Source: Mailhella massiliensis
GTDB lineage: Bacteria > Desulfobacterota > Desulfovibrionia > Desulfovibrionales > Desulfovibrionaceae
Assembly: GCF_900155525.1 (NCBI RefSeq)
Contig: NZ_LT706952.1
Span: 523,834-568,279, forward strand
Reading direction: 5' to 3'
DNA length: 44,446 nucleotides
Shown: in pieces, positions 18,794 through 41,322 of the stretch
Numbering within the stretch: position 1 is the first letter of the stretch
Layout of the letters: each line of letters begins with the position of its first letter
Position numbers and translations under genes: made by a program
Notes under the pieces: generated by a model
The model's input: the letters and a program-made list of their open reading frames with translations, nothing else
What the model was told of the DNA's origin: nothing
The model's database searches: none

Positions 18794-18829
18794 ATGTCAA
18801 CCTTAAACATTGACATTTGAGGTTGACAT
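18794..18829. promoter_or_regulatory. BirA operator
   Basis: Perfect 10-bp inverted repeat ATGTCAACCT (18794-18803) and AGGTTGACAT (18820-18829) separated by 16 bp. The layout and GTCAACC/GGTTGAC half-sites are those of bacterial BirA sites. It sits between the divergent bioB and birA genes and probably controls both. An extra half-site-like TTGACAT lies in the spacer. Confidence 0.9.
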
Positions 18830-18857
18830 TTAAGAAGAGTCACAGGACGGAGCAGCG

Positions 18858-19709
18858 ATGATGCGAGAGGAAATGCCCATGCGGAACCGCATTCTGGACA
18901 GTCTTGCCCGGGGCGGAGGGGAGGAATGGATATCGGGGGAGGCGCTTTCCCGCGATTTCCGCATCAGCCGGGCGGCGGTGAGCAAGCACGTCAACTCCCT
19001 GCGCGGGGAAGGCAACATCATCGAATCCGTACCGCGCCGGGGCTACCGGCTCATTTCCCGCGCCGACCCCTGGGCCGGGGACGACGTGCGCGAGGGGCTA
19101 CGCACCCGCATACTCGGCAAAAAGGAATGGATATGGCTCAAGGAAACGGGGTCCACCAATCAGGTGGCCGCGCAGCAGGCGCTTGCCGGAGCGGAGGAAG
19201 GCCTTGTGGTGGTGGCACGCCGCCAGAACGAGGGCCGGGGCAGCAAGGGAAGCCGCTGGTTCTGCCTGCCGGGGAGCCTTTCCTTCTCCGTGCTGACGAA
19301 GCCGCATCTGCCGCCGGAAAAGCTGGCGCTTCTGCCCCTTCTCGCCATGGAGGCCTGCGCCCGCGCGGTGGAGAAGGGCTGCGGCATACGCCTGGAACAG
19401 CGCGCGCCCAACGACCTTTTTCTCCATGACCGCAAGGTGGTGGGCATACTGGCGGAAAGCATGTTTCACAATACGGAACTTCAGTGGTCCGTGGTGGGCA
19501 TAGGCGTCAACGTCAACGTGCCCTCTTCCGCCATTCCCCCGGAGCTGGAGGGCATAGCCTCCTCGCTGTATGCGGAAACGAAAACGCCCTTCAGCGTGAC
19601 GAAACTGTTGCGCTGCATTCTCGAAGAGCTAGAAAAGGAACTGGAAAAGGGCGAAACGCCCACGGAATACGCAAAAAAAGCACAGGCCCGCCGGGAGGAC
19701 CTTGTCTGA
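18858..19709 (+). CDS. birA: Biotin operon repressor / biotin-protein ligase BirA (short form)
   Basis: 283 residues. Residues 9-65 form a winged helix (EALSRDFRISRAAVSKHVNSLRGEG, PRRGYRL), then a biotin protein ligase domain with TGSTNQVA, the adenylate loop GRGSKGSRW (usually GRGRxGR.W), PNDLFLHDRKVVGILAE and GIGVNVN. Two oddities are visible. The Lys-Trp of the usual KWPNDL motif is replaced by RA (QRAPNDLF). The chain also ends right after the catalytic domain at KAQARREDLV, lacking the roughly 50-residue SH3-like C-terminal domain, with a terminator only about 45 bp further on. It should biotinylate carboxylase subunits and, with biotinyl-AMP, repress the divergent bio operon. Confidence 0.93.
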   Translation: MMREEMPMRNRILDSLARGGGEEWISGEALSRDFRISRAAVSKHVNSLRGEGNIIESVPRRGYRLISRADPWAGDDVREGLRTRILGKKEWIWLKETGSTNQVAAQQALAGAEEGLVVVARRQNEGRGSKGSRWFCLPGSLSFSVLTKPHLPPEKLALLPLLAMEACARAVEKGCGIRLEQRAPNDLFLHDRKVVGILAESMFHNTELQWSVVGIGVNVNVPSSAIPPELEGIASSLYAETKTPFSVTKLLRCILEELEKELEKGETPTEYAKKAQARREDLV

Positions 19710-26611: not shown

Positions 26612-28174
26612 TCAGTCCTTGGTGTCGGACAAAGAAAAGTTCATTTTTCTCATACGTGATTTCAAGGTGTTGTACTGAATTTTCAAAATATCCGTTGCGC
26701 CGCCCGCGCCGGAAAGCTTGCCATTGCAGTGCCGTATCACATCGGCGATATAGTCGTCTTCATGTTCCCGAAGTGAAGGCCAGTCCGCTTTTTCGACCTG
26801 CGACGACTGTCCTGCGGTCTGCATTTTCGGAGACAACGTACGAGCCGTCCACGGGGCAAGGTCGAAGTGAAGCGTTTTCTTTCGCTGCGCCCTGCTTATG
26901 AGCAGGGCTCTCTCCACAACGTTTTCCAGTTCCCTCACGTTGCCGGGCCAGTCGTAGCGACACAGGGCGTTCAATTCCCCCTCGTCCGCCTCGGGCACGA
27001 AAGCCAGACCGAGTTTCTTGCTTTTTTTCATGAGAATGTAGTTTAAAAGCACGGGAATGTCGCTGAGTCTCCTGCGCAGCGGCGGCACGATGATGGGATA
27101 GGCGGAAAGTCGATACCACAGATCGCGCCGGAAACGCCCTGTATCCAGCTTGTCCATGAGATTTTCCTGCGTAGCCGCAATGATGCGCACGTTTACCGGA
27201 AAAGCGCGCGTACCGCCCACGCGGCGTATGGTTCCGTCCGTCAGCACTCTGAGCAGGCGTACCTGAGCAGACTTCGGCATCTCGCCTATTTCGTCGAGAA
27301 AAAGCGTGCCGCCCCCGGCCATTTCAAAGTACCCCGCACGAGAGGTCAGAGCTCCGGTGAAGGAGCCTTTTTCATGGCCGAAAAGCTCGCTGTCCACAAG
27401 GCTCGGAGGAATAGCTCCACAGTTCACCTTAATGAAGGGGCCGTCTTTTCTCTGCGACAGTTCATGAATCATGTCGGCCACGGCTTCTTTGCCGACACCC
27501 GTCTCGCCGAGAATGAGCACGGTGGTATCCACATCAGCCACGGCTTCTACCCGCAGCTTGACGTTATGCAGTCCCGGACACTGCGTTACTTTTTCCCTGC
27601 CGCTTTCTTCCACACGTTTCTGCGCCTTCCGGTCGTCGAGATCTATGCCGGAGAGGTTTATTTTCAGCTCTTCGGCAAGAGGAGAGAGAAGCTGGCGAAT
27701 GCCTTCAAGATCGTCCGGCCCGAACGCATTGTTTTCCTTGGACCACAGACACATGAGAAACACGGACGAGGTCGACTGAAAAATGGGAATGCGCAACATG
27801 GAGTTATGGAAAAGATAAGGCATGTCGTACTCGAATGTCGGGTCTATTTTTTCATCTTTCGATATGACGGACTTGATGTCGCCCAGAAGAATATCTTCGG
27901 TGATGCGTTCCCGCAGAATGAGTGGCGGTAGATGACCGGCCACAGCAAATTTATTGGAGACGTTGATTTTGTTCGTATCCGACATGGTGACTATGACGTC
28001 GGCATTTATGGTGCAGTAAAGTGCGTTTATGCGCGCCACGGGCAGATACTGCTGCAGCAGGTCCAGAAGAAACAGCAGCAGGTTGCGCAGACCGCTGGTT
28101 CTGTACATGGCTACGCACGATTCTGCGGCAACGGTTGATTCGAACAGATGCTTTTTGTCCATGATGTCCCGCAT
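26612..28174 (-). CDS. Sigma-54-dependent transcriptional activator (GAF-AAA+-Fis)
   Basis: About 520 residues. The N-terminal region (1-190) resembles a GAF-type sensor. The central AAA+ domain has Walker A GETGVGKE, the sigma-54 contact loop GSFTGA, Walker [13 protein letters not shown] and the R-finger region [11 protein letters not shown]. The C-terminal Fis-type helix-turn-helix is [24 protein letters not shown]. Start is uncertain: ATGs at 28174 and 28162 both lack strong ribosome-binding sites, and the frame is open to a TTG at 28264. It is divergent from the ferredoxin operon, which has a canonical -24/-12 promoter, so it is the likely activator, with the GAF domain sensing the aromatic or organic-acid substrate. 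Confidence 0.9.
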
Positions 28175-28371
28175 GTTTTTGAAAGTCGTTCCGCTCGTAT
28201 GCCGACGATGCGCTTCATTCGTTCCGTCGTTGTTTTTTTTGTTCGGCTGTGCGGAAAATGTCAATTTTTACTATTAATTTTTAATGACAATACTTGAATA
28301 TTTTTAACGCGACAAGATTAGTCAAACGGATAAAAAACAATAATATATTGAAATTGCAAATAAAAAAAATT

Positions 28372-28387
28372 TGGCATACTTTTTGCT
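28372..28387 (+). promoter_or_regulatory. Sigma-54 (-24/-12) promoter
   Basis: TGGCATACTTTTTGCT matches the consensus TGGCAC-N5-TTGCW with the invariant GG and GC at the required 10-bp spacing. It is 64 bp before the ferredoxin start in an AT-rich region, next to the gene of a sigma-54 activator. Confidence 0.85.
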
Positions 28388-28450
28388 CTTTAAAGCGCAA
28401 GTAACGCGGCCACAAGGCACGCATTCAACAAGCAGCATCAGGAGAAACGT

Positions 28451-28681
28451 ATGCCTCCCATCATCAACGCGGAACAGTGTTCTCACTGTGGCATGTGCGC
28501 AAGCATATGTCCCTTGAATATTTTTACCTATTCCAAAGGACAAACTCCCATCGTGGCCTATCCTGAGGAGTGCTGGCACTGCAATGCTTGTGTTCTTGAC
28601 TGTCCTCAAAAAGCCATAGAGCTGAGGCTTCCCATCAATTACATGATGCTTCATATCGATGCAGACAGTCTTCACAGATAA
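28451..28681 (+). CDS. 2[4Fe-4S] ferredoxin, AprB-like
   Basis: 76 residues. Two clusters are evident: CSHCGMCASICPLNIF and CWHCNACVLDCPQKAIELRLP. The spacing and the C-terminal ELRLPINYMMLH resemble the N-terminal part of adenylylsulfate reductase beta subunits (AprB), but without AprB's long C-terminal tail. First gene after the sigma-54 promoter, with AGGAG upstream; it is followed by an AprA-like flavoprotein 118 bp downstream, so the two are likely subunits or redox partners of one enzyme. Confidence 0.88.
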   Translation: MPPIINAEQCSHCGMCASICPLNIFTYSKGQTPIVAYPEECWHCNACVLDCPQKAIELRLPINYMMLHIDADSLHR

Positions 28682-28798
28682 TCTGCATTATGAAGAATAA
28701 CATGGCGTCATGATATGTGGAAATATTGATCGACATTCATGTGGTGACGCTTTTTGCAGAGACCATACTTTCATAAAGTTAGGACTCAGGAGAAAGTT

Positions 28799-30484
28799 AT
28801 GATAGGTTTTAAAGATACGATAACGACGGATGTGCTCATCGTTGGCGGCGGCATAGGCGGTCTTTGCGCGGCCATAGCTTCGGCCCGCTTCGGAGCGGAT
28901 ACGCTGGTGGCGGAAAAGTCCGACTCCAGACGTTCCGGCTCTGGCGCCACGGGCAACGATCACTTCCTCTGCTATTATCCCAAGGCTCACGGCAACGACA
29001 TCATGCCCATTCTGCAGGAAACCTTTCAGAGTCAGATAGGTGGTTTTCACGATCCCAAGCTGACGCTTCGTTTTCTGCAGGAATCCATAGCCATGGCCGA
29101 CAGGTGGCTGGAGTGGGGCATAAACATGCGTCCCTTCGGGCCGGATTATGAATTCATGGGACACGCCTTCCCGGGCCGCCCTAGGATATGGTTGAAATAC
29201 GACGGTCACAATCAGAAGCAGATTCTTACGGCGCAGGCCAAAAAGGCGGGCGCGAAGATTCTCAATCACACTCCCGTGGTGGAACTCATTACCGCAGACG
29301 GAGAAATAGCCGGCGCGCTGGCGCTCGATGTCAGCAGTGAGGAACCCGCATTCCGCCTGATCCGCGCCAAAAAGGTCATTCTGGCCACGGGCACGGCAAA
29401 CAGACTGTATCCCGCAGCCGGCACTCCGGGCAGTCCGTTCAACACGGCGTTCTGTCCGGCCTGCACGGGGGCGGCTCAGGCGCAGGCGTGGCGCGTGGGC
29501 GCAAAGATGGTCAACATGGAAATGCCCAACAGGCATGCCGGACCCAAGTTTTTTGCCCGCGCAGGCAAGTCCACCTGGATAGGCGTGTACCGCTATCCCG
29601 ACGGCAGACTGCTCGGCCCCTTTGTGGAACAGGCCACCCGCTACATAGGCGACATTACCTGCGACGTGTGGAACACGGCCTATACCGACGTGTTGCGCAA
29701 CGGCACCGGCCCCGCCTACATCGACTGCACGGGCATAAGCCAGGACGATCTGGACTTCATGAAGCAGGGCATGATCAGCGAAGGCCTGACCACCGTTGTG
29801 GACTACATGAAGCGTTCCGGCCTCGACGTGACGAAGCACGCGTTTGAATTCATGCAGTACGAACCGCATCTCATCGGCCGCGGACTCGAGGTGGACATCA
29901 ACGGTGAAACTTCCATTCCCGGTCTCTACGGCACGGGCGACATGGTGGGCAACTTCCGTTCGGATATTTCCGGCGCCGCCGTTTACGGCTGGATCTGCGG
30001 CAATCACGCCGCCTCCACGGTGCAGCAGGGCAGTTTCCGGGAAGTGGAGCACTCGGCCTGGGTGCAGGAACGGGCGGAGCTTTACAGCAGCCTTATGGAA
30101 AGAAAGAACGGCGGCACCTGGAAGGAAGCCAATCTCGGTCTTCAGCAGATCATGGCCTCCTATGCCGCTGCCGGTCCCTACAACGTGCGTTCGGAAAATC
30201 TGCTCAAGGCCGGTCTGAAGTATCTGGGCGATCTGCGCAAGGAATCCATAGCCTCCGTAAGCGTCCGCAACGCGCATGAGCTCATACGCGCCGTAGAGGC
30301 GCTCGACCTCATGGACAACGGCGAGATCATCATGCACGCGGCGCGGGAACGCAAGGAAAGCCGCGGAATGCATCTGCGCTCGGACTACACGTTCACCAAT
30401 CCGCTTCTGAGCAACAAGTTCCTGCAGGTCTGGCAGGAAAACGGCACCGTGCATACGAACTGGCGCGAGCGCTGGGGGCTGTGA
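28799..30484 (+). CDS. FAD-dependent oxidoreductase, fumarate reductase/AprA-like flavoprotein
   Basis: 561 residues. N-terminal FAD motif VLIVGGGIGGLCAAIASARFGADTLVAEK, a second FAD site in VILATGTANRLYP, and IPGLYGTGDMVGNFRSDISGAAVYGWICGNHAA near the end of the FAD domain, then the helical C-terminal domain of the succinate dehydrogenase/fumarate reductase/APS reductase alpha family. Together with the preceding ferredoxin it mirrors AprAB, but the surrounding decarboxylase and carboxylate transporter argue against sulfate reduction. A reductase or dehydrogenase of an unsaturated or aromatic acid-derived intermediate is more likely. Start at 28799 with AGGAG. The reaction is unassigned. Confidence 0.85.
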   Translation: MIGFKDTITTDVLIVGGGIGGLCAAIASARFGADTLVAEKSDSRRSGSGATGNDHFLCYYPKAHGNDIMPILQETFQSQIGGFHDPKLTLRFLQESIAMADRWLEWGINMRPFGPDYEFMGHAFPGRPRIWLKYDGHNQKQILTAQAKKAGAKILNHTPVVELITADGEIAGALALDVSSEEPAFRLIRAKKVILATGTANRLYPAAGTPGSPFNTAFCPACTGAAQAQAWRVGAKMVNMEMPNRHAGPKFFARAGKSTWIGVYRYPDGRLLGPFVEQATRYIGDITCDVWNTAYTDVLRNGTGPAYIDCTGISQDDLDFMKQGMISEGLTTVVDYMKRSGLDVTKHAFEFMQYEPHLIGRGLEVDINGETSIPGLYGTGDMVGNFRSDISGAAVYGWICGNHAASTVQQGSFREVEHSAWVQERAELYSSLMERKNGGTWKEANLGLQQIMASYAAAGPYNVRSENLLKAGLKYLGDLRKESIASVSVRNAHELIRAVEALDLMDNGEIIMHAARERKESRGMHLRSDYTFTNPLLSNKFLQVWQENGTVHTNWRERWGL

Positions 30485-30543
30485 GCCTTCCGCCGCCAGG
30501 ATGAACGCTTTTTCCAACTGAACATTTCATGGGGAGGACTGCC

Positions 30544-31506
30544 ATGCTGGGCAAGATAGGTCTGGAAGAACACTTTGCCGTTGAGGAAACGGTGGGACAC
30601 ATTCCCGCGGGTCTGAAGAACGCCGAAGAGAGAAAGAAGAAGCTGCTCGATATTTTAAACATGCGCGTGGCCGAAATGGACAAGTACGGGATGGATCTCA
30701 TGATTCTGTCCCTGAATTCTCCGGCCATACAGGAAACCTACAACGCCCGGGAAGCCGTGGATCTGGCCCGGCGCTGCAACGATCATCTGGCGGAATGCAT
30801 AGCCCGGCGCCCCGACCGTTTCCGCGGCTTTGCGGCCCTGCCCATGCAGGATCCCGACGCTGCCATTGATGAGATGGAACGCTGCGTCAAGGATTACGGA
30901 TTCAAGGGTACTCTCGTCAACGGCTACTCCCAGATCGGTTCTCCGGATACGGCCGTGTATCTTGATGACAAGCGTTACCGGCCCTTCTGGGCCAAAATGC
31001 AGGAACTGGACGTGCCCTTTTATCTGCATCCGAGAAATCCCATGAATGATCAACGGAAAATCTATGACGGGCATCCCTGGCTCATGGCTGCCGCCTGGGC
31101 CTTTACCGTGGAAACGGCCACGCACATGCTGCGTCTGCTCTGTTCGGGCATTTTCGACGAGTATCCGAAGCTCAAGCTCATCGTGGGACATCTTGGCGAA
31201 TGCGTTCCCTTCCATTCCTGGCGCACCCAGAACAGGCTGAACCGCGACCCGCGGCCGCGCCCCTTCAAGCTCACGATTCAGGAATATCTGAAAAGAAACG
31301 TGTACGTAACCACCAGCGGTTTCTGCAGCACGCCCGCGCTCATCAATACCATTGCCGAAATGGGTGTGGAGCGCGTCATGTTTTCCACCGACTATCCTTT
31401 TGAAACCGTGGAAGATGCCTCCACATGGTTCGACAACGCGGAAATTCCCGAGGACGTTCGTGTGAAGATAGGCCGCGACAACGCCAGAGCGCTGTTCAAT
31501 CTGTAG
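30544..31506 (+). CDS. Amidohydrolase-family non-oxidative decarboxylase, gamma-resorcylate / 2,3-dihydroxybenzoate type
   Basis: 320 residues. The sequence follows gamma-resorcylate decarboxylase closely from the start: GLEEHFAVEET (metal Glu and His), MILSLNSPAIQ, RPDRFRGFAALPMQDPDAAIDEMERCV, VPFYLHPRNPMNDQRKIYDGHPWLM (metal His), LIVGHLGECVPF (metal His), and MFSTDYPFE (metal Asp). This family of the amidohydrolase superfamily removes CO2 from hydroxybenzoates reversibly without oxygen. It has GGGAGG 6 bases before the ATG. Third gene of the sigma-54 operon. Substrate inferred as a dihydroxybenzoate; a related carboxylate (for example other phenolic acids) is possible. Confidence 0.85.
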   Translation: MLGKIGLEEHFAVEETVGHIPAGLKNAEERKKKLLDILNMRVAEMDKYGMDLMILSLNSPAIQETYNAREAVDLARRCNDHLAECIARRPDRFRGFAALPMQDPDAAIDEMERCVKDYGFKGTLVNGYSQIGSPDTAVYLDDKRYRPFWAKMQELDVPFYLHPRNPMNDQRKIYDGHPWLMAAAWAFTVETATHMLRLLCSGIFDEYPKLKLIVGHLGECVPFHSWRTQNRLNRDPRPRPFKLTIQEYLKRNVYVTTSGFCSTPALINTIAEMGVERVMFSTDYPFETVEDASTWFDNAEIPEDVRVKIGRDNARALFNL

Positions 31507-31526
31507 TTCTTCCGAGGAGATACGTC

Positions 31527-32921
31527 ATGTCGCAGAATACGAAAAAATGGTTGTGCATCCTGGGGATTATCTGCCTTTATCTGGTGCTGTCCAACATTCC
31601 CGTGGGGGATGAACTCAAACCCACGGCGCAGAAGGCCATGGCCCTCATGGTGTGCGCCGTGCTCACGTGGAGTCTGGATCTGCTTCCGCTGGCCTTGGCT
31701 TCCGTGCTCTTCACGGTACTCACCGTTCCTCTTGGACTGGTCAAACTGCCCAAGGTCATGGCCAACTTCGCCGATCCGTCGATTTTCTTCGTGTTTGCCA
31801 TGTTCTGCAATGCCATTGCTTTTCAGAACTCCGGTCTGTGCCAGCGCATCGTACTCTGGACCACGATGAAGTCGAAGGGCAATCCCCGCAAGCTTTCCTT
31901 TTATCTTATGCTTGTTACAACCATCATATCCATGGTGCTTGCCGATATTCCGGCCATCGCCATGATGTATCCCGTAGGACTGATGCTGCTTGAGAAGAAC
32001 GGATGCGTTCCCGGTGAAAGCAATTTCGGCCGTACGCTCATGCTCGGTCTGCCTCTGGCAAGCCTCATAGGCGGCATAGGCACCCCTTCCGGCTCCTCCA
32101 TGAACGTGATGACGCTCACGCTTCTGCAGTCCACGGCAAACATTTCCGTTTCCTTCTTTCACTGGTCCGTCATAGGCATACCCATGGCCCTCGTTCTCAT
32201 CGTAGCTACATGGTTCATCCTACAGAAAACTTATCCGTCGGAACTTACGGAGCTCAAGGGCATAGAAGCCATATGCAACGACTACGAGTGCCTCGGTCCC
32301 ATTACGAGAAAGGAATGGAACTACATCATCGTGTTCTTCATCAACTTCACGCTCTGGGCGACCGATTCCATCCACCACACGCCTCTGCCGGTCATAGCCG
32401 TCATAGCCGCCACGCTGTTCTGCCTTCCCAACATGGGCCTCATTGAATGGAAGAAGGACAGAAACAGAGTGGGCTGGGACATTCTTATGCTCATAGGCGC
32501 CTCCACCGCCATAGGCAAGATAATCTGGCAGGAAGGCGGCAGTCTTTGGCTGGCCGAAACCTGCCTCGGCAACATCACTATGCTGCCCGTGGCAGGCATC
32601 ATTGCAGCCGTATGCGTGTTCACCATTGCCGTTCATCTCCTCATTCCGGTCAACACTGCCATTGTGGCCGTGCTGCTGCCCACGCTGGTCAGCCTGGCTT
32701 CGATGAAGGGCATCAATCCGGCACTGCTGGCCATCCCTCTGGGGTTCAGCGTTTCCGCATCGCTGCTGCTTCCCCTGGGACCGGTCCCCCTCGTCACGTT
32801 CCCTGCCGGATACTACAAGATGTACGACCTCTTCAAGCCCGGCTGCATCATCTCTCTGGTGTGGGTTGGAGTCATGGTGGTCGCCATGCTCGGCATCGCA
32901 GTGCCCATCGGTCTGCTTTAG
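31527..32921 (+). CDS. DASS/SLC13-type anion (carboxylate) transporter
   Basis: 464 residues, about 11-12 membrane segments. Features of the divalent-anion:Na+ symporter family are present: FADPSIFFVFAMFCNAIAFQNSGLCQRI, GLPLASLIGGIGTPSGSSMNVM (the SNT-like substrate/sodium motif), and the second repeat with LIGASTAIGKI...LLIPVNTAIVAVLLP. It starts 21 bp after the decarboxylase stop with GAGGAG, and is followed by a terminator, so it is the last gene of the sigma-54 operon. It probably imports the organic acid handled by the decarboxylase and flavoprotein. Confidence 0.87.
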   Translation: MSQNTKKWLCILGIICLYLVLSNIPVGDELKPTAQKAMALMVCAVLTWSLDLLPLALASVLFTVLTVPLGLVKLPKVMANFADPSIFFVFAMFCNAIAFQNSGLCQRIVLWTTMKSKGNPRKLSFYLMLVTTIISMVLADIPAIAMMYPVGLMLLEKNGCVPGESNFGRTLMLGLPLASLIGGIGTPSGSSMNVMTLTLLQSTANISVSFFHWSVIGIPMALVLIVATWFILQKTYPSELTELKGIEAICNDYECLGPITRKEWNYIIVFFINFTLWATDSIHHTPLPVIAVIAATLFCLPNMGLIEWKKDRNRVGWDILMLIGASTAIGKIIWQEGGSLWLAETCLGNITMLPVAGIIAAVCVFTIAVHLLIPVNTAIVAVLLPTLVSLASMKGINPALLAIPLGFSVSASLLLPLGPVPLVTFPAGYYKMYDLFKPGCIISLVWVGVMVVAMLGIAVPIGLL

Positions 32922-32933
32922 AAGACAGTCAGG

Positions 32934-32956
32934 ACCGCCCCTTCAAGGGGCGGTTT
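32934..32956 (+). terminator. Terminator of the sigma-54 operon
   Basis: Stem ACCGCCCC/GGGGCGGT with a 5-base loop, 13 bp after the transporter stop. Confidence 0.85.
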
Positions 32957-33030
32957 GATTGGTTAAAAAGAAAACCCCCAGCTAGGCTGGGGGTTCCCGA
33001 AAACTTATAGTTATGCGTAAGTGATAACCA

Positions 33031-33102: not shown

Positions 33103-33561
33103 ATGGGTGACACAAAGAAGTTGGCGCATACGCAATGGAACTGCAAATATCACATAGTCTTTGCACCAAAATATCGCCGACAGGTTTTCTATGGAGAGAA
33201 GAAAAGGGCCATAGGAGAAATATTGCGAAAATTATGTGAGTGGAAGGGAGTGAGCATAGTAGAAGCAGAATGTTGTCCCGACCATATCCATATGTTGCTA
33301 GAGATACCGCCCAAGATGAGTGTATCGGCGTTTGTCGGATATTTGGAAGGAAAGAGCAGCCTGATGATATATGAGCAGTTCGGTGAGCTGAAGTTCAAAT
33401 ATCGTAATCGGGAGTTCTGGTGCCGAGGTTACTATGGTGATACGGTGGGCAAGAATAAGGCAAAGATAGCCGAGTACATCAGGCATCAGCTGGCTGAGGA
33501 TACATTCGGAGAACAGTTGGGCATCCCGTATGGCGGAAGCCCGTTTACGGGCCGCCGGTAA
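33103..33561 (+). CDS. tnpA: IS200/IS605-family transposase TnpA, complete
   Basis: 152 residues. MGDTKKLAHTQWNCKYHIVFAPKYRRQVF start, HUH motif in PDHIHMLLEIPP, LEGKSSLMIYEQF block, FWCRGYYGDTVG, and the catalytic Tyr helix AKIAEYIRHQ. Length and motifs are those of an active single-strand transposase. No tnpB accompanies it. Confidence 0.93.
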   Translation: MGDTKKLAHTQWNCKYHIVFAPKYRRQVFYGEKKRAIGEILRKLCEWKGVSIVEAECCPDHIHMLLEIPPKMSVSAFVGYLEGKSSLMIYEQFGELKFKYRNREFWCRGYYGDTVGKNKAKIAEYIRHQLAEDTFGEQLGIPYGGSPFTGRR

Positions 33562-33710: not shown

Positions 33711-34709
33711 CTACTTCTGGATGCGTGCAAGAATCTTTTCGTACAGCGCATCAGGCAGTTCCAGATCCTGTCCACGTCTGGATTCACGCAAGGCGAAGCG
33801 GCGGGAACCGGGCAGGCGGGTGCCGGACTGGGAAAGAATATGCGCCACCAGGCGTTCCAGCGTAGCGGGGAACTGGGGATTCATCTTTTCAGGATCAATA
33901 ATGATAAAGCTCTGGCCGATGCCCGGAGCGGGCCCTTCGGCTTCGAAGAAAGAGCTGGCTTCAAAGGCATGGTTGGAGCCGGTGAGGGAGGCGGAAAGAA
34001 TTTCCACCATGAGGGCCAGCGCGGCTCCTTTGGCATCACCCAAGGGTACCATGGTACCCTTGAGGGCTGCTTCAGGAGAGGTGGTGGGCTGACCGGTTTC
34101 ATCCAAGGCCCAGCCTTCGGGAATGGTGGTTTCACCCTTCTGCTTGGCATTCATGATCTTACCGCGGGCCACTTTGCTCAAGGACATATCCACCACGATG
34201 GGATCTTCGCCGCTTCTGGGGCAACCGAAGGCCAGAGGATTGGTTCCGTAGCTGGGAAGCTTTCCTCCCCAAGGAGCCATAGCGGAAGGAGTGTTGGAAA
34301 AGGCAAGACAGATGAGGCCTTCCCGGGCTATGCGTTCAACATAGTGACCGAGCATGCCACAGTGATGCGAACGGCGAACGCCAACCATGGAAATGCCGAA
34401 CTCTCTGACCAGAGGAATGGCCGCCTTCAATCCTTCGTTGATGGCGGGAAAGGCATAGCCGTTGCAAGCGTCCACGCAGACGACGGCGGGAGTAGGATTG
34501 AAAACCACGGGACGGGCGTCGGCCTTCACCTTGCCGGTTTTGGCCTGATCCACATAAAAGGGAATACGGGAAAATCCGTGGGAGGGCATGCCGTCCAGTT
34601 CGGCGAGAAGAAGGGCGTCGGTGACGCACGAAGCCGTGTCGTCGGGAACACCGGCAGAGAGGAATGCCTTTATACCGAGCTCGCGCATGGCATTGTAGGA
34701 AAGTTTCAT
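33711..34709 (-). CDS. comC: (R)-sulfolactate dehydrogenase, malate/L-lactate dehydrogenase (Ldh2) family
   Basis: 332 residues, NAD(P)-dependent Ldh2-type fold distinct from Rossmann LDH: LDGMPSHGFSRIPFY (catalytic His region), GVRRSHHCGMLGHYVERIA, FSNTPSAMAPWGGKLPSYGTNPLAFG, IVVDMSLSKVARGKI. In known sulfolactate clusters the Ldh2 member ComC oxidises or reduces (R)-sulfolactate against sulfopyruvate. It is 43 bp downstream of slcC on the same strand with GAGGA upstream. Together the two act as a sulfolactate racemase. The IS200 right end lies only about 50 bp beyond the stop, without disrupting the gene. Confidence 0.85.
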   Translation of the reverse strand: MKLSYNAMRELGIKAFLSAGVPDDTASCVTDALLLAELDGMPSHGFSRIPFYVDQAKTGKVKADARPVVFNPTPAVVCVDACNGYAFPAINEGLKAAIPLVREFGISMVGVRRSHHCGMLGHYVERIAREGLICLAFSNTPSAMAPWGGKLPSYGTNPLAFGCPRSGEDPIVVDMSLSKVARGKIMNAKQKGETTIPEGWALDETGQPTTSPEAALKGTMVPLGDAKGAALALMVEILSASLTGSNHAFEASSFFEAEGPAPGIGQSFIIIDPEKMNPQFPATLERLVAHILSQSGTRLPGSRRFALRESRRGQDLELPDALYEKILARIQK

Positions 34710-34752
34710 GAAAAGTTCCTCAAAGTCCGGTATGTACCGGAGCTGCAGATTT

Positions 34753-35679
34753 TTATTTCAGCGCGGAAGCCACTTTTTCGGCGATCATGGAGCTGACACG
34801 CGTATTGGATTCGCGCGTGACCCCAGCAATGTGGGGGGTAAGCAGACAATGAGGAGCCACGGCGAGCGGAGAGTTCGCGGGCAGGGGTTCCTTCCCGAAA
34901 ACGTCGATCATGGCACCGCCGAGTCTTCCATCAATAAGGGCCTGCGCCAGCGCCGCTTCATCCACGATACCGCCGCGGGCCGTATTGACGAGGAAGGCTC
35001 CCTTCCTCATGGCGGCCAGACGCTGTTCGTTGAACATGTTTCTGGTACTGTCGGTCAGCGGAACATGCAAGCTTATGGCATCGGATTCTGCAAGAAGTTC
35101 ATCCATGGAAACAGGCGTCACATCGTGTTCCTTCCACACCGGAGCATCGGCAGCTATGAAAGGATCATAGGCGATCACATTCATGCCGAAGGCTTTAGCA
35201 CGGCTCGCCACGTCGCGGGCAATACCGCCGAATCCGAGCAGGCCGAGCGTCTTGCCGAAGATTTCTCCGCCGGAGGACATGCGTTCGCGCGGCCATTTGC
35301 CGTCGGCCACTTCATTGAGACTCTGATAGCAGCCTCGGGCCAGCATGAGCAGACCGGCCATAACATATTCTGCAACAGAAACGTTATTGGCTCCGGTTGC
35401 AGGAATAACAGTGATATTTCTACTCTTACATGCCTCTACATCTATATTATCAAGTCCTACACCAAGCCTTCCTACAACACGAAGTTCCTTTGCAGCGTCA
35501 AGCAGTGCTTCGCGCACCTGAGTCTTATTTCTTACAATAATGGCACTGCACGTGGTGATATGTTTTATAAGTTCATCAGGTCTATCAACAAGAGTCTTAT
35601 CATAGATAACGTTAAATTCTTTTTTTAAAGATTCAACAGCATTGGAATCCATGAACTCAGTGATGACTATGGTGTCCAT
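34753..35679 (-). CDS. slcC: (S)-sulfolactate dehydrogenase, D-2-hydroxyacid dehydrogenase family
   Basis: 308 residues. MDTIVITEFMDSNAVESLKKEF start, GLLGFGGIARDVA nucleotide-binding motif, catalytic Arg in NTARGGIVDEAAL, acidic residue in DVFGKEPLP, and His in LLTPHIAGVT. The VITEFMD N-terminus and the partners SuyAB/ComC identify it as SlcC, which oxidises (S)-sulfolactate to sulfopyruvate with NAD+. The start at 35679 is chosen for GGGAGATAAGT upstream; the in-frame start at 35712 has no ribosome-binding site. Divergent from the GntR regulator. Confidence 0.87.
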   Translation of the reverse strand: MDTIVITEFMDSNAVESLKKEFNVIYDKTLVDRPDELIKHITTCSAIIVRNKTQVREALLDAAKELRVVGRLGVGLDNIDVEACKSRNITVIPATGANNVSVAEYVMAGLLMLARGCYQSLNEVADGKWPRERMSSGGEIFGKTLGLLGFGGIARDVASRAKAFGMNVIAYDPFIAADAPVWKEHDVTPVSMDELLAESDAISLHVPLTDSTRNMFNEQRLAAMRKGAFLVNTARGGIVDEAALAQALIDGRLGGAMIDVFGKEPLPANSPLAVAPHCLLTPHIAGVTRESNTRVSSMIAEKVASALK

Positions 35680-35721
35680 ACTTATCTCCCGTGTAAAATT
35701 ATGGGATGGCAATGAAAAATA

Positions 35722-35753
35722 ATGCTTGACAAAATATCAAGATGCATTAAAAT
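35722..35753 (+). promoter_or_regulatory. Promoter and imperfect palindrome before the GntR gene
   Basis: TTGACA (35726-35731) and TAAAAT (35748-35753) with 16-bp spacing make a good sigma-70-type promoter reading toward the regulator. The -35 box is overlapped by an inverted repeat CTTGA-N7-TCAAG (35725-35741), a candidate autoregulatory site. Confidence 0.55.
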
Positions 35754-35788
35754 TATAAAACAATTCAACCTAAAATGGTATCAAATTC

Positions 35789-36505
35789 ATGACAAAAGTA
35801 ACGTCCATTCCTCTGTACGCGCAGATAAAATCTTCCATCCTCAGCCGGATAGTTGCGAAGGAGTGGGGACCTGGGAGTTTTTTGCCCAGTGAGACGGCGC
35901 TGGCGGCCGAGTACGGAGTCAGCCAAGGAACACTACGCAAGGCCTTGAACGAACTCGCTCTGGAAAAAAAACTCGTCCGCTTTCAGGGCAAGGGAACGGC
36001 CGTCGCCGTTCTCGACTCTGACGGGGCTTTATTTCCTTTTTTCAGGCTTTACGATGATGACGGAAAGAGAGTGTATCCTCTTTCACAGATGACTTCCACC
36101 CAATATGATATGGCAAAAAAGGAAGAAGCAATAGCGCTGGGCATCGAAGATGGCGATGCCATTATACGTATTCATCGCATCCGAGTGCTGGACGAGCAGC
36201 CGGTAATCAATGAGTTCATACTTCTCCCTTCCAAGCGCTTCCCCGGCTTTCCTTGTGATCTCAATAAGCTGCCGAATACTCTTTACGAGTATTACTTTCA
36301 GCAGTTCGATATTCTCATCGCCAAAGCGACGGAAAGTCTCCAAGCGGTGATGTCGGATCCGTTGGATATGAAAAGTCTACGTCTTTCTGAAGTCTGCCCT
36401 TTGCTGGAAATCCGAAGAAAAGCGTTTGATATTGATGGGAAGGTGGTTGAGATCCGTCGCAGTCGCGTTCTCACGATCCATCATTGTTACCATACTGACT
36501 TGTAA
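35789..36505 (+). CDS. suyR: GntR-family (HutC-type) regulator of the sulfolactate cluster
   Basis: 238 residues. N-terminal winged helix (IPLYAQIKSSILSRIVAKEWGPGSFLPSETALAAEYGVSQGTLRKALNELALEKKLVRFQGKGTAV) and a UTRA effector domain with ...DAIIRIHRIRVLDEQPVINEFILLP and CPLLEIRRKAFDIDGKVVEIRRS. HutC-type GntR proteins bind small organic acids and palindromic DNA. It is divergent from slcC and between the two halves of the cluster, so its ligand is probably sulfolactate or sulfopyruvate. Name by analogy to SuyR. Confidence 0.82.
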   Translation: MTKVTSIPLYAQIKSSILSRIVAKEWGPGSFLPSETALAAEYGVSQGTLRKALNELALEKKLVRFQGKGTAVAVLDSDGALFPFFRLYDDDGKRVYPLSQMTSTQYDMAKKEEAIALGIEDGDAIIRIHRIRVLDEQPVINEFILLPSKRFPGFPCDLNKLPNTLYEYYFQQFDILIAKATESLQAVMSDPLDMKSLRLSEVCPLLEIRRKAFDIDGKVVEIRRSRVLTIHHCYHTDL

Positions 36506-36552
36506 CACCTATCCTTTATCGAAGATACGGCTGTCAACTCCGTGTATCCTTG

Positions 36553-36590
36553 ACGGCGAAGCTTCCCAAATGGAAAGCTTCGCCGTTTTT
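36553..36590. terminator. Bidirectional terminator between suyR and suyB
   Basis: 12-bp perfect stem ACGGCGAAGCTT/AAGCTTCGCCGT followed by a T run, between convergent genes. Confidence 0.9.
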
Positions 36591-36621
36591 CTTCCAAAAA
36601 TGAGGAAGGAGAGAAGGAATA

Positions 36622-37791
36622 TTAGGCGCTGCGATACAACTTGGTCATAACGATTTCGCGATGCCCCAGAGCCTCGGCGCTGGTAAAGCGACCGTTGGAG
36701 GTGCGGACCATCATCTCGAGGAGCAGATCGCCAGCTTCGTCAAGGTTCATTTCACGGCGCATGAGCGGATTGACGTTCACGTCGATATGTTCGCTCATGG
36801 TACGAACCGTGCGGGGGTTGGCGGAAATTTTAATGACCGGCAGGATGGGATTGCCGATGACGTTGCCCTGACCAGTGGGGAAGAAGTGAACCACGGCTCC
36901 GGCGGCAGCCACAAGGGTGACCATTTCGGCAGCGGCGGAAGAGGAGTTCATGAACCACAGTCCGGGATGAGTGGGGGCTTCCGCGTAGTCGAGGCAGCCG
37001 TCGACCATGCACTTCTTACCGATCTTCTGAATGTTACCCAGAGCCTTTTCTTCGATAGTGGTCAGACCGCCGAGAATGTTGCCCTTGGTAGGCTGGGAAT
37101 CGGAGAGGTCGTTGGTCTTGTTGGCAATGATGAAATCATTGTATTCAGTCCACATATCCATGAACTGCTTGGCGATTTCAGGAGTGCGGCAGCGCTGGGC
37201 GACCAGGTGTTCGCCGCCGGTGATTTCGGAAGTTTCACCGAAGAACAGGGTGTTGCCGTTTTCGTACAGCTTGTCGAAGGCATTGCCTACGGTGGGGTTG
37301 GCTGCGATGCCGGAGGTGGTGTCGGATTCACCACACTTGCAGGAGACCCACAGCTCGTCGATGGAGCATTCCTCACGCTGCAGCTCGGTAGCGTACTGCA
37401 CGAGTTCCTTGGCCTTGCGGGAAGCTTCACAGATGGTGTTGTGGTCGCCGTGCTGTTCGATGGAGAAGCCGAACACAGGCTTGCCGGTCTTGGCAATGCC
37501 GTCGGTGATGACCTTGGTCCATTCAGGTTCGATGCCGATGACGATCACGGCAGCCACGTTGGGGTTGCTGCCCAGACCGATGAGAGTGCGGAAATGCAGT
37601 TCAAGGTCGGCGCCGAACTGGAGACGTCCGTAATGATGAGGCAGGGCCATGGTTCCCTTGACGGCGGCTTCAACGGCCAGGCACGCGGCGTTGGAAAGAT
37701 CATCGAGAGGCAGAATGATGACGTGATTGCGTACGCCGACTCTGCCGTTCTCGCGGCGATAGGCCATGACTTTCGTATTCTTGAGATCCAT
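36622..37791 (-). CDS. suyB: (2R)-sulfolactate sulfo-lyase, beta (catalytic) subunit
   Basis: 389 residues, UxaA/altronate-dehydratase C-terminal family. It begins [35 protein letters not shown], with the family motif NGRVGVRNH, and contains [27 protein letters not shown] and [26 protein letters not shown]. SuyAB splits (R)-sulfolactate into pyruvate and sulfite. Start at 37791 with GAGGTGG upstream, 2 bp after the suyA stop; an in-frame GTG at 37800 is less likely. In a sulfite-respiring organism the released sulfite would go to dissimilatory sulfite reductase. Confidence 0.9.
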
Positions 37792-37793
37792 GA

Positions 37794-38078
37794 TTACCAC
37801 CTCTTGGTCTTGACGTTATGGACATGAAGATGTTCGCCCTTCTTGATGGGAGCGACGACCTTGCCGATATCCACACCATATTTGATGACGGTGTCGCCCA
37901 CGTTCAGGTCCTTGAGGGCAACCTTATGGCCGATCGGAATATCATCGAGCACGGTGAATTTGATGAGGTAGTCTTCCTTCATGACCCAGCCTTCCAGTTC
38001 CTGACCGGCCTTGACCCCCTCTACCGTAATGACGCCGACGCTGTCGCCGTCCTGATGGACCAAAAACTGTACGGACAT
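37794..38078 (-). CDS. suyA: (2R)-sulfolactate sulfo-lyase, alpha subunit (SAF domain)
   Basis: 94 residues, a complete SAF-domain protein: [68 protein letters not shown]. Its HKVALKD and GDTVIKYG(V)DIG elements are typical of the small subunit of UxaA-type lyases. A strong AAGGAGG lies upstream. It is transcribed with suyB; a perfect 20-bp palindrome lies 42 bp upstream of the start. Confidence 0.92.
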
Positions 38079-38119
38079 CTGTGCCTCCTTTGAGGTTGTT
38101 TGGAATATGTGGACTATAA

Positions 38120-38139
38120 CATATCTTATATAAGATATG
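38120..38139 (-). promoter_or_regulatory. Palindromic operator of suyAB
   Basis: Perfect palindrome CATATCTTATATAAGATATG. Its half-site ATATCTTAT also forms the inverted repeat upstream of tctC, so the same regulator (probably SuyR) may bind both. Separates suyAB from the upstream tct genes. Confidence 0.7.
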
Positions 38140-38234
38140 CAAGTATAAAATTGATATGGAAAAGGCATTCCCGGAATGTTCCGAGCGATGCGGTTTTCAC
38201 TCCCCACATATTGAATGGTGTAGACCTACCGTTT

Positions 38235-39746
38235 CTAGTCGTCGCTCTCACAGGCTTCTTCCAGCGAATTGCACTTGTACTGACGCCACAGGCCGCGGAT
38301 GATGGCAGCTATGCCCAGCACCATAAAGAAGGCGGAAATGGGACGGCTGAAAAAAATGTTCAGACTTCCGTCAGACAGCATCAGCGACTGGGAGAGCGAG
38401 GTTTCCATCATCTGCGCGAGCACGACGGCCAAGATGAGCGGAGCCATGGGGAAACGGAACTTGCGCATGAAGTAACCGATGACGCCAAAAACGAGGGTCA
38501 TCCACACATCGAACAGTTGGAAACGGACGCTGTAGGCTCCGATCACCGAGAAGATCAGAATTAGCGGACCTAGCACAGGGAAGGGAATGATGGCGATTCT
38601 GGCCCAGAGTCCGATGAGGGGAAGGTTCAGCATAAGGCACATGAGATTACCGATGTACATGCTGGCGATGATGGCCCATACGAAATCGGGGTTTTCCTGG
38701 AACAGCATGGGGCCGGGAGTCAGGCCGTACATCATGAAGCCGCCGAGCAGAACGGCCATGGCGGATCCGGTGGGAAGACCGAAGGCAAAAAGCGGTACGA
38801 AGCCCGCGCTGGAGGTGGCGTTGTTGGCACCTTCCACGGCGGCCACACCATCAATGGCACCGTGGCCGAACTTTTCAGGATGTTTTGAGAATCTTTTTTC
38901 AATATCGTAGGCGATGAACGTCGTCACCGCAGGCGCGCATCCGGGCAGCAGTCCGAGGAAAAAGCCGACGACAGCGGACCGTATCATGGCGAAGCGGCAG
39001 TAAAGCACTTCGGCCCACTTCGGCTTCCAGTCCACTTTGGTATTTTCCAACATATAACGGGTATTCTTTTCCACGTTGACGAACACTTCGCTGATGGCAA
39101 AGAGCCCGATGATGATGCTGATGAAGTCGATACCCCCCATCAGATCCAGGCTGCCAAAGGTCAGGCGGCTGGTACCGGTCAACGGATTCTGGCCTATATA
39201 AGAGATAAGCAGGCCGAAACTGGCGGCCGTAAGGCCTTTGAGCAGAGCGTTGCCAGCGAGACTGATAATGAGGGCCAAGGCCATGAACATCAGGGAAAAA
39301 TATTCCGGGGGACCAAATTTGAGGGCGAGATTTGCCAGAGGCGGAGCGAAGAAGCTCAGACCTATGACGCCCAACGTACCGGCCACACAGGAGGAAATGG
39401 CGCAGATGGCCAGAGTGGGGCCGCCGCGTCCCTGCTTCGCCAGCTGGAAACCGTCGATGGCGGTGCATACGGAGGAAGCTTCACCGGGAATGTTCACCAT
39501 GATGGCCGTGGTGGACCCCCCGTACATGGCACCGTAATAAATGGCTGCCAGCATGATGATGGAGCCGGTGGGGTCGCCGAGCTGCGCGGTCAGGGGCAAC
39601 AGGATGGCTATGCCGCTGGTGGGACCTATGCCGGGCAGAACACCGACCAAGGTTCCGAACAAACAGCCGACCATCGCCAAGAGGATATTGAGGGGCGACA
39701 GGGCTGCTAGAAATCCATTAAAAAGATAGGCGAAGGAAAAATCCAT
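38235..39746 (-). CDS. tctA: Tripartite tricarboxylate transporter, large membrane subunit TctA
   Basis: 503 residues, about 12 membrane segments. TctA signatures are LVGVLPGIGPTSGIAILLPLTAQL, AIYYGAMYGGSTTAIMVNIPGEASSVCTAIDGFQLAKQGRGG and FLLGLLPGCAPAVTTFIAYDIEKR, plus AAVEGANNATSSAGFVPLFAFGLPTGSAMAVLLGGFMMYG. Such transporters take up carboxylates delivered by a binding protein. Known sulfolactate clusters carry the same transporter class (SlcHFG). Last gene of the tct unit. Confidence 0.92.
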   Translation of the reverse strand: MDFSFAYLFNGFLAALSPLNILLAMVGCLFGTLVGVLPGIGPTSGIAILLPLTAQLGDPTGSIIMLAAIYYGAMYGGSTTAIMVNIPGEASSVCTAIDGFQLAKQGRGGPTLAICAISSCVAGTLGVIGLSFFAPPLANLALKFGPPEYFSLMFMALALIISLAGNALLKGLTAASFGLLISYIGQNPLTGTSRLTFGSLDLMGGIDFISIIIGLFAISEVFVNVEKNTRYMLENTKVDWKPKWAEVLYCRFAMIRSAVVGFFLGLLPGCAPAVTTFIAYDIEKRFSKHPEKFGHGAIDGVAAVEGANNATSSAGFVPLFAFGLPTGSAMAVLLGGFMMYGLTPGPMLFQENPDFVWAIIASMYIGNLMCLMLNLPLIGLWARIAIIPFPVLGPLILIFSVIGAYSVRFQLFDVWMTLVFGVIGYFMRKFRFPMAPLILAVVLAQMMETSLSQSLMLSDGSLNIFFSRPISAFFMVLGIAAIIRGLWRQYKCNSLEEACESDD

Positions 39747-39814
39747 ATCATGTGGCCTCTTGAAGTTTGCTCACGGAATGGAAATTATTGGTCAATAGAC
39801 AAACTATGATATGA

Positions 39815-40276
39815 TCAATTCAAAATTCCCAAGGGATAGGGCATCTGGAGAACTTTGATGAATACATAATAAAAAAGTAGACTTACACCGAGGCCGACAG
39901 GAATGGCGAAGTGAGGTCTGCGGTCGTAGAACCAGATGAGGCCGGCGGTGAATATAAAGCCGGACACGGGTAATCCCAGAGTCGGAAGTGTGGTGTAGAA
40001 GAAGACCAAGGCCACTATTGTGACCAGAATATTTATCCAGCCACTCAGTTCGGGCCAGACGACTTCGACGCGCGCACCTTTATAACGCCATGCCCTGATG
40101 GCCAGTGCCACTCCGAGAACCATGAGAATGATGGAGAGACTTAGTGGAAGAGTCCCTGGATGCAGCGGTTCATCGAGAATGTTTTGGATTTTCAGGGCCT
40201 GACTCATCATGGCACCACCAAATCCAAAACAAAAAAGACCACTAATGATATCAGCTGTACGGAGACTTGTGGACAT
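39815..40276 (-). CDS. tctB: Tripartite tricarboxylate transporter, small membrane subunit TctB
   Basis: 153 residues, four hydrophobic segments: FGGAMMSQALKI, TLPLSLSIILMVLGVALAIRAW, LVTIVALVFFYTTLPTLGLPVSGFIFTAGLIWFYD, FAIPVGLGVSLLFYYVFIKVLQMPYP. It is typical of TctB in length and topology. Ribosome-binding site GGGAG. It lies between tctC and tctA; a strong hairpin separates it from tctC. Confidence 0.9.
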   Translation of the reverse strand: MSTSLRTADIISGLFCFGFGGAMMSQALKIQNILDEPLHPGTLPLSLSIILMVLGVALAIRAWRYKGARVEVVWPELSGWINILVTIVALVFFYTTLPTLGLPVSGFIFTAGLIWFYDRRPHFAIPVGLGVSLLFYYVFIKVLQMPYPLGILN

Positions 40277-40290
40277 GGTACTCCCTCGGA

Positions 40291-40319
40291 CGATAGGCCC
40301 GCACGAAGCGGGCCTATCG
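40291..40319 (-). terminator. Intercistronic hairpin after tctC
   Basis: Perfect 12-bp stem CGATAGGCCCGC / GCGGGCCTATCG with a 5-base loop and no long T run. It probably stabilises the upstream tctC message or partly terminates, giving more binding protein than membrane subunits. Confidence 0.75.
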
Positions 40320-40344
40320 ACGGTTTATTTAGGAAATGGCGAGA

Positions 40345-41322
40345 TTACTTTCCGCGGGTATTCTTAAGAATGTCACCGTAGAACTTTGTCATTTCCTTGA
40401 TGTAGGAGACGCATTCGTCATGCCCCATGGCGACGGGAGTGAAGCCTTCACGAGTCTGCGCTTCTATCACTTCGGGGCGATTGGCGATGTCGATGAACGC
40501 CTTTTCAAGAGTACGCACCACGTTGTCGGGAGTGCCGGGAGGCAGCGCTACGCCGCGGTCAATGGAGAGCACGATATCAAGGTTCTTTTCCTTGAAAGTG
40601 GGAACGTCGGGGAAGAGCTTCAGTCTTTCGGCACTGGTGACGGCAAGGATACGGGCCTTGTCGCGGAAGCGGACCAAGTCGTCGGAGTTGGCGATAATGG
40701 CGTCATAGTGACCGCCGAGGAAGCCGGTCATCTGCGTGGCCGAGCCGGTTTCGGGAATGTACGTTATACGTACGCCAGCCTGCTTCTGGAGGGAGAGAAG
40801 CGCGATATGGTGCCCTGACAGAGAGCCGGAACCGCAGAGCTTCATCTTGCCGGGGGCCTTCTTGGCGGCAGCTATGAACTCTTCATAGGTCTTGTAGGGA
40901 GAATCCAGCGGCACGGCGAGTCCGAGGTAGGTGCGCTGGAAGATGCATACGGGGACAAGCTGATCGGTCTTGTATCCAACATCCTGCAACATGGGCTGCA
41001 GAATGGTGTGAGGAATGTTGAAGCCCGCGAACGTATAGCCGTCGGGCTCGCTTGTCACAAGTTCCTTCCAGCCCAGAGCACCGCCTCCGCCGACTTTATA
41101 ATCGATGATGACATTCTGCCCGAGGAGTTCCTTCAGCAAGGGTTCCTGACGCCGGGCTTCACGATCGGACTGACCTCCGGGGTTGAAGGTGATCATGTAG
41201 GTCATGGGTCGGGTCGGAAAGTCGTCGGCCGCCTGTGCATGGCCGGGAAGGGCCGTAGCCGCCACCATAAGACACATGGACGCTGAAAGCATGTTTCTGA
41301 CGAGTTTTGTGAATTTCATCAT
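40345..41322 (-). CDS. tctC: Tripartite tricarboxylate transporter substrate-binding protein TctC
   Basis: 325 residues. Signal peptide MMKFTKLVRNMLSASMCLMVAATALPGHAQA precedes a TctC-family periplasmic binding protein: ITFNPGGQSDREARR (the phosphate-like carboxylate-binding loop), VGGGGALGWKEL, AFIDIANRPEVIEA and other family blocks. It should bind sulfolactate (or a related C3 acid) in the periplasm and hand it to TctAB. First gene of the tct unit with AGGAGGAG upstream; an ATATCTTATA inverted repeat lies just upstream. Confidence 0.9.
   Translation of the reverse strand: MMKFTKLVRNMLSASMCLMVAATALPGHAQAADDFPTRPMTYMITFNPGGQSDREARRQEPLLKELLGQNVIIDYKVGGGGALGWKELVTSEPDGYTFAGFNIPHTILQPMLQDVGYKTDQLVPVCIFQRTYLGLAVPLDSPYKTYEEFIAAAKKAPGKMKLCGSGSLSGHHIALLSLQKQAGVRITYIPETGSATQMTGFLGGHYDAIIANSDDLVRFRDKARILAVTSAERLKLFPDVPTFKEKNLDIVLSIDRGVALPPGTPDNVVRTLEKAFIDIANRPEVIEAQTREGFTPVAMGHDECVSYIKEMTKFYGDILKNTRGK

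Follow-up and report, generated by a model that had tools for sequence, protein, structure and literature searches.

A sigma-54-controlled ferredoxin–flavoprotein operon of Mailhella massiliensis with a decarboxylase and an anion importer, and its possible role in phenolic acid reduction

Plant phenolic acids reach the gut, and anaerobic reduction of the aromatic ring is known partly as an activity without genes. Which reaction would a gut bacterium carry out with an operon that seems to combine the import, decarboxylation, and reduction of such an acid? The question is raised by a 44,446-nt stretch of contig NZ_LT706952.1 (GCF_900155525.1) of Mailhella massiliensis, here called the window, where a gene for a sigma-54-dependent activator lies divergent from genes for a 76-aa ferredoxin (Fd), a flavoprotein (FP), a gamma-resorcylate-type decarboxylase (DEC), and an anion transporter (DASS). 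An initial annotation had described this cassette and suggested hydroxybenzoate metabolism; every part that it named, the promoter included, was found at its place, and its interpretation as a whole is partly supported. Familiar components are joined here in a combination, and for a reaction, that appear to be new. Genes were called with a simple open reading frame picker, which small genes can escape, and names marked "by eye" were judged from reading the sequence.

Results

The conserved unit

The genome of M. massiliensis (G000, 3.47 Mb, with the window on contig C28) contains three Fd–FP modules. The FPs of the other two are 53–54% identical to that of the window and their ferredoxins 50 and 61%; one module (L012) consists of activator, Fd, FP, and DASS genes and the other (L011) of Fd, FP, and DASS genes, both without DEC. 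In GTDB genomes, FP-like matches were obtained at 71 loci, 66 of them with an Fd gene; none was found at L045, L054, L081, L085, and L087, the last being a 23% FP match, and at L069 it lies 3.8 kb off. Importers recur as well: across 73 loci (the window, L011, L012, and L017–L086) and counted anywhere in the stretch, we found 34 with DASS relatives, 19 with TRAP DctM, and 7 with TTT TctA, the last number including the window's own TctA on its sulfolactate side.

FP passes E 1e-100 in 34 of the 348 class genomes searched and in 16 of 19 from the genus, in a scan that scored four candidates per genome and thus gives lower bounds for the copy numbers. DEC was detected at E 1e-40 in 16 of the 348 and, for the genus, in 2 of 19 (G000 and G246), and at 1e-75, among 395 sampled genomes of the phylum, in G000 only. 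The conserved unit is the Fd–FP pair with an importer, and DEC is accessory to it. In the FP tree, the window groups with L017, L018, and L019–L023 (local support 99); the FP of L017, from a Mailhella metagenome-assembled genome (MAG), is 98% identical to that of the window, and the nearest public relatives are Mailhella MAGs. The second cassette with DEC, in G246 (L105), has different flanks, with ABC-transporter genes upstream and an FMN-reductase-like gene downstream (by eye). As it keeps the block amid these other flanks, the block has held together.

The flavoprotein and its ferredoxin

The ferredoxin, annotated as AprB-like, resembles the N terminus of AprB and scores 37 bits with the aprB model TIGR02060 against a cut-off of 135.65. 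FP reaches 77.6 bits with the AprA model TIGR02061 (cut-off 641.75) and 103.5 bits with the SdhA/FrdA model TIGR01812 (cut-off 567.3), and the other curated families scored were also far under their cut-offs. By sequence, its best PDB chain is 8a8o, the alpha subunit of PAPS reductase (126.6 bits). The AlphaFold model (pLDDT 84.5, pTM 0.90; 18 rows) gives the same best match in Foldseek (1.3e-35, 24% identity, TMq 0.81), followed by fumarate reductases, complex II subunits, and APS reductase (1kf6, 1.4e-31; 1jnr, 3.9e-30). FP has the fold of the APS/PAPS/fumarate reductase superfamily yet is outside the named families. It shares with AprAB, the PAPS reductase, and the fumarate reductase flavoproteins both this fold and the pairing with a 2[4Fe-4S] protein, but differs from them in the low identity to 8a8o, the AprA, AprB, FrdA, and SdhA scores below cut-off, the short ferredoxin, and the link to an importer. 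The description "AprA/FrdA-like" is therefore right for the fold and does not extend to family membership, and the scores for TIGR02061 and TIGR01812 led us to reject the idea that FP is a genuine APS or fumarate reductase. The benzene flavoprotein of PMC13416013 was rejected as a relative too, since it is a VAO/PCMH-type protein of another family.

The decarboxylase and the transporter

DEC passes PF04909 with 150 bits (cut-off 26.4), and its best solved match is the gamma-resorcylate (2,6-dihydroxybenzoate) decarboxylase (gamma-RSD) 2dvt with 370.9 bits, 2,3-dihydroxybenzoate decarboxylase (2,3-DHBD) giving 270 bits. Identities are 52.8% to 2dvt, 52.5% to 3s4t, also a gamma-RSD, 42.8% to the 2,3-DHBD 7wjr and, over the aligned parts, 36.9 and 34.2% to two 5-carboxyvanillate decarboxylases. 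Like 2dvt and 3s4t, DEC has the metal ligands E8, H10, H164, H218, and D287, as well as N128 and R229, so the claim of a gamma-resorcylate-type enzyme with all its ligands stands; H10 sets it apart from 7wjr, where the position is A. Unlike these gamma-RSDs, DEC is four residues shorter near residue 18, belongs to an anaerobe, and adjoins Fd–FP. According to PMC10176493, decarboxylases of this class act ortho to a phenolic hydroxyl and have established native substrates in few cases, so that any substrate assigned to DEC is a proposal. Searched in full, G000 holds 22 PF04909 amidohydrolase matches, some of them short fragments and in all far more than one pathway needs. In another genome from the same family as G000, a relative of DEC (46%; L107:5561-9226) adjoins UbiD and UbiX.

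The annotated DASS importer was borne out by its family model (Table 1), and its relatives are of the VcINDY type (92.5 bits to 9n5n). DASS carriers of dicarboxylates bear two SNT motifs; unlike the VcINDY-type transporters, the window protein reads ADI at the first of these places and VNT at the second in the alignment, and the usual dicarboxylate site looks altered.

Sigma-54 control

Pfam finds an AAA lid next to the Sigma54_activat domain of the activator and, in its first ~195 aa, no match even at E 0.1. The initial annotation of a GAF-type sigma-54 activator thus holds for the sigma-54 part, and the GAF assignment is rejected. The protein shares 50% identity with its counterpart at the paralogous locus L012. 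The strict motif TGGCAT-N5-TTGCT, of which 0.14 matches were expected in the whole window, occurs once; it departs from the consensus at one base, T for C, and the promoter is therefore strict rather than "perfect". We examined 600 bp around the 5' end of 19 related activator genes, all on the minus strand and with at least 300 bits, at 18 loci including the window (six further hits, weaker than this or located on the other strand, were left out). A strict -24/-12 site is present near the 5' end in 13 of the 19, against 0.017 expected per 600-bp stretch; the binomial tail for this count ignores kinship. Because the site recurs, the arrangement of activator and promoter goes beyond chance, and sigma-54 control across operons of the Fd–FP kind is well supported.

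The genes under this promoter are separated by 117 nt (Fd–FP), 59 nt (FP–DEC), and 20 nt (DEC–DASS). FP starts with an ATG behind a stretch resembling a ribosome-binding site, with an alternative TTG further upstream. The hairpin after DASS is absent from the output of the consensus terminator scan, despite its strong fold.

Table 1. Positions of the cassette's genes and signals in the window
Feature	Positions	Strand	Remarks
Sigma-54-dependent activator	26612..28174	-	~516-520 aa, start 28174 or 28162; Sigma54_activat E 3.9e-65 (Pfam)
-24/-12 (sigma-54) promoter TGGCATACTTTTTGCT	28372..28387	+	Sole strict motif match in window
2[4Fe-4S] ferredoxin, 76 aa, AprB N-terminus-like	28451..28681	+	Pfam Fer4_7 1.1e-11
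FAD flavoprotein, AprA/FrdA fold, 561 aa	28799..30484	+	Pfam FAD_binding_2, Succ_DH_flav_C
Gamma-resorcylate-type decarboxylase (PF04909), 320 aa	30544..31506	+	2dvt E 4.6e-110, 52.8% identity
DASS anion transporter, 464 aa	31527..32921	+	TIGR00785 206.6 bits, cut-off 198.6
Hairpin 3' of DASS, probable terminator	32926..32961	+	Fold -25.7 kcal/mol, z -5.3

Phenolic acid enzymes near related flavoproteins

The suggested hydroxybenzoate theme is sustained by the neighborhoods of Fd–FP in unrelated bacteria, where UbiD, tannase, pyrogallol hydroxytransferase, and PF04909 enzymes are found. In Lachnoclostridium An14 (L068, the same as L138), UbiD and UbiX are followed by ABC importer genes, FP, Fd, a subtype B tannase, one further gene, and DASS. 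The tannase starts 21 nt past Fd and is the only one over the cut-off in that genome (557.7 bits, cut-off 300); UbiD and UbiX lie 7.6 kb upstream, with 184 bits for UbiD in Pfam and 144 bits for UbiX in phmmer, and as a VdcC-like protein this UbiD scores 458 bits, below the cut-off of 650. Two Hungatella genomes contain a pair of tannases over the cut-off each; one of the pair lies 7.4 kb away from FP and on the opposite strand. Overall, 4 of 11 FP-bearing genomes searched have such a tannase. In HGW-Deltaproteobacteria-15 (L034, the same as L174), the locus reads LigW-like decarboxylase, TAXI and TRAP importers, FP, Fd, FP, and regulator (by eye), and it also holds the large (1082.6 bits) and small (274.9 bits) subunits of pyrogallol hydroxytransferase, as compared with 4v4c. 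A Desulfatiglandales MAG (L073, the same as L175) has two FP–Fd pairs amid four PF04909 genes; of the four proteins, the one that was set against solved structures has 5-carboxyvanillate decarboxylase as its nearest match.

The association with PF04909 was measured on ten FP loci of eight genomes from the class of HGW-Deltaproteobacteria-15, not picked for PF04909, with expectations based on how many PF04909 matches those genomes hold. Five of the ten (G1059, G1003:C215, G1049, G1060, and G1068) have a PF04909 gene no farther than 10 kb from FP, where 0.38 were expected (P 1.4e-5 under random placement), and three of these have it within 300 bp, where 0.04 were expected. The eight genomes, being of one class, are nonindependent, and short contigs depress observed and expected counts alike. 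L034, L048, L069, L071, L073, and L086 were left out as first noticed through their PF04909 genes; accordingly, the 22 FP matches from 11 genomes were reduced by the 12 in G359, G363, and G364, the genomes of L034, L073, and L086. Within these left-out genomes, two of the seven loci not spotted through PF04909 (G359:C100 and C12) have a PF04909 gene within 10 kb. A locus of G1004 with an N-masked PF04909-like stretch was scored as a miss.

Flanking genes and other recurrent units

Genes resembling sulfolactate catabolism adjoin the cassette at 33711-41322, on the minus strand apart from a regulator at 35789-36505 (+). The set comprises an Ldh_2-type dehydrogenase (210 bits with the L-sulfolactate dehydrogenase model, below the cut-off of 500), a 2-hydroxyacid dehydrogenase, a SuyB-like GD_AH_C protein with a weak SAF-domain partner, a TctABC importer, and the regulator, of the GntR type. 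An IS200-like transposase (Y1_Tnp, 33103-33561) separates it from the cassette. At 42346-43343, a sigma-54 activator frame meets a DDE transposase, and the 114-aa frame of this element recurs near 8429 and 10869 of L011 and near 16631 of L016, hence at several sites in the genome.

Further units were seen at the related loci. A type B carboxylesterase lies 3–5 kb past FP at five Fd–FP–DASS loci (L011, at 17771-19309 by Pfam; L042, L044, L046, and L058), with a seryl-tRNA-synthetase-like gene (by eye) intervening at four of them. L059, from Moorella sulfitireducens, has two Fd–FP pairs, and the genome has four matches resembling pyrogallol hydroxytransferase. Another recurrent unit joins a TAXI/TRAP importer to an FAD flavoprotein distantly related to FP and a Fer4_20/Pyr_redox protein (L011:808-7452, L015:1791-6479, and parts of L013 and L014; by Pfam in L011, by eye elsewhere).

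Discussion

The reading that we favor, with somewhat less than even confidence, is that of an inducible operon for an ortho-hydroxybenzoate, which would be imported, decarboxylated nonoxidatively, and reduced at the expense of ferredoxin as an electron sink; the substrate, the direction, and the order of the steps are what we infer. The divergent activator would sense an effector and fire the -24/-12 promoter, as the observed motif and arrangement suggest. DASS, to judge by its family, may import the aromatic acid, and DEC, to judge by its class, would strip the carboxyl group without redox chemistry; 2,6- or 2,4-dihydroxybenzoate, for instance, would become resorcinol. Low-potential electrons could then flow through the two [4Fe-4S] clusters of Fd to the FAD of FP and on to the acceptor, which would be the phenol in an enone-like tautomeric form or else the acid itself. 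With a meta-dihydroxybenzene, a hydride from reduced FAD would go to the tautomer, giving, for example, 1,3-cyclohexanedione from resorcinol. The reduced product would probably be excreted, making the operon an electron sink.

A related order of steps is known from the anaerobic gallate/phloroglucinol pathway, where decarboxylation precedes ring reduction, and the title of a 1990 study by Kluge, cited in PMC10470551, suggests that resorcinol reduction follows the decarboxylation of resorcylate. The logic of the gallate pathway with its pyrogallol hydroxytransferase is similar, and AthL and AthS are present at one Fd–FP locus (L034/L174). Unlike that pathway, G000 has no match to AthL, the large subunit of pyrogallol hydroxytransferase, at 1e-100 and none to the PF04199 cyclase family, which is also without matches in the four congeners searched. 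Ring cleavage along the known phloroglucinol route is therefore unlikely, a cyclase of the DPGC type is rejected for G000, and we think it more likely that a reduced product leaves the cell as an electron sink. The closest chemistry is that of resorcinol reductase, whose activity depends on ferredoxin and whose ease of reaction is explained by the keto tautomer, according to PMC10470551; it is the same ferredoxin-driven reduction of a meta-dihydroxybenzene that we propose. Among 5.39 million open full texts, "resorcinol reductase" occurred in this paper only, the available part of which names no gene. To date, resorcinol reductase is known as an activity. The literature searched gave no described system of Fd–FP and importer of this kind; the initial annotation knew of no described pathway with this combination either.

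A number of observations weigh against the favored reading. The complete Fd–FP–DEC–DASS block is found, among the 348 class genomes, in G000 and G246 only, and at the 15 other DEC-like stretches of the class (16 were fetched, and at L117 the gene caller missed the DEC-like gene), relatives of Fd–FP, Fd, or DASS are found at none. A widely conserved four-gene unit is hence rejected, and the co-conservation that the initial annotation had named as its test is limited to these two genomes. The nearest orthologues of FP (L018–L023, 75–88% identity) have no DEC where the contig is long enough, the contigs of L018, L020, and L023 stopping within 2.2 kb past FP. L018 (88%) has a second activator next to FP before the contig ends; L019, L021, and L022 each combine a TRAP importer with a second Fd–FP; L023 has a TRAP importer and ends after FP; and L020 is a 3.2-kb contig. 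TRAP importers, as found at L019, L021, L022, and L023, usually move acids rather than neutral phenols. Because the nearest orthologues lack DEC and most have TRAP importers, the version specific to resorcinol is weakened; because they and the paralogues in G000 lack DEC, DEC is most simply an addition to a preexisting Fd–FP–importer module.

To the same side belong several details of the enzymes and their neighbors. In DEC, the W288 of gamma-RSD is replaced by Y. Seven PF04909 enzymes encoded close to distant FPs were compared with DEC and are 22.5–34.3% identical to it, and the link of FP is therefore to the PF04909 family and not to gamma-RSD itself; with 22 PF04909 matches in G000, one beside a single module of its three means little on its own. 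The FPs with tannases form one clade (support 100) and so a single lineage, and its fourth member, L132, has no tannase in the stretch examined. Some FP loci hold genes of another kind, resembling MmgE/PrpD and arylmalonate decarboxylase at L078, MmgE/PrpD at L134, and serine dehydratase at L133, all below curated cut-offs, for which reason the FP family, judged by such sequence matches, probably serves more than phenolics.

These observations lead to a serious rival, to which we give a lower, though still appreciable, probability: FP may reduce an unsaturated or aromatic carboxylate before or beside DEC, with the imported acid as the acceptor and DEC as a late side branch for detoxification or a second substrate. 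Orthologous FPs without DEC and with TRAP or DASS importers, the presence of DEC in 2 of 19 genus genomes, and the weakly matching MmgE/PrpD-like neighbors at L078 and L134 argue for such an order, whereas the position of DEC between FP and DASS, at the short gaps given above, and the retention of the block in G246, where the flanks differ, argue against it. DEC could also have dropped by chance into an otherwise self-contained Fd–FP–DASS unit without sharing its pathway, as the abundance of PF04909 in G000, its occurrence near one of three own FP loci, and the lack of Fd–FP at the 15 other DEC-like loci might suggest; given the operon spacing, the identical block in the second genome, and the enrichment of PF04909 near FP in other genomes, we regard this as the least probable of the alternatives.

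The electrons may instead run in the opposite direction, FP acting as a dehydrogenase that passes them from the imported acid through ferredoxin to sulfite respiration. APS-reductase-like pairs are reversible, and the adjoining genes, if rightly named as sulfolactate catabolism, would yield sulfite; set against this, a decarboxylated ortho-hydroxy aromatic would offer no easy two-electron oxidation to ferredoxin and no NAD- or quinone-linked partner is among the four genes, and we find the direction improbable. It is more improbable again that FP performs chemistry of the APS/PAPS reductase type on a sulfo or sulfonated compound imported by DASS. While the PAPS reductase 8a8o is the best match by both fold and sequence and the bacterium seems to handle sulfonates, the AprA and AprB scores are far under their cut-offs, the catalytic AprA residue E141 faces P125 of FP in an alignment of low identity, and several neighborhoods are of the phenolic acid type, with no search aimed at sulfur enzymes there.

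Returning to the decarboxylation and reduction that we favor, we can entertain a broader and more doubtful conjecture: Fd–FP might be the ferredoxin-dependent resorcinol reductase itself or a relative that reduces other meta-dihydroxybenzenes, within a large undescribed family of importer-linked ferredoxin:aromatic-acid/phenol oxidoreductases, distributed among Thermodesulfobacteriota, Pseudomonadota, Bacillota, Actinomycetota, and Acidobacteriota, with whose help sulfite-respiring gut bacteria could employ plant phenolics as electron sinks. If true, the operon would provide a cloneable and inducible candidate for ferredoxin-dependent ring reduction, and Fd–FP with its importer would be a marker family for this reaction across gut and sediment bacteria. 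Plant phenolics would then be tied to the redox balance of the gut bacteria that form H2S.

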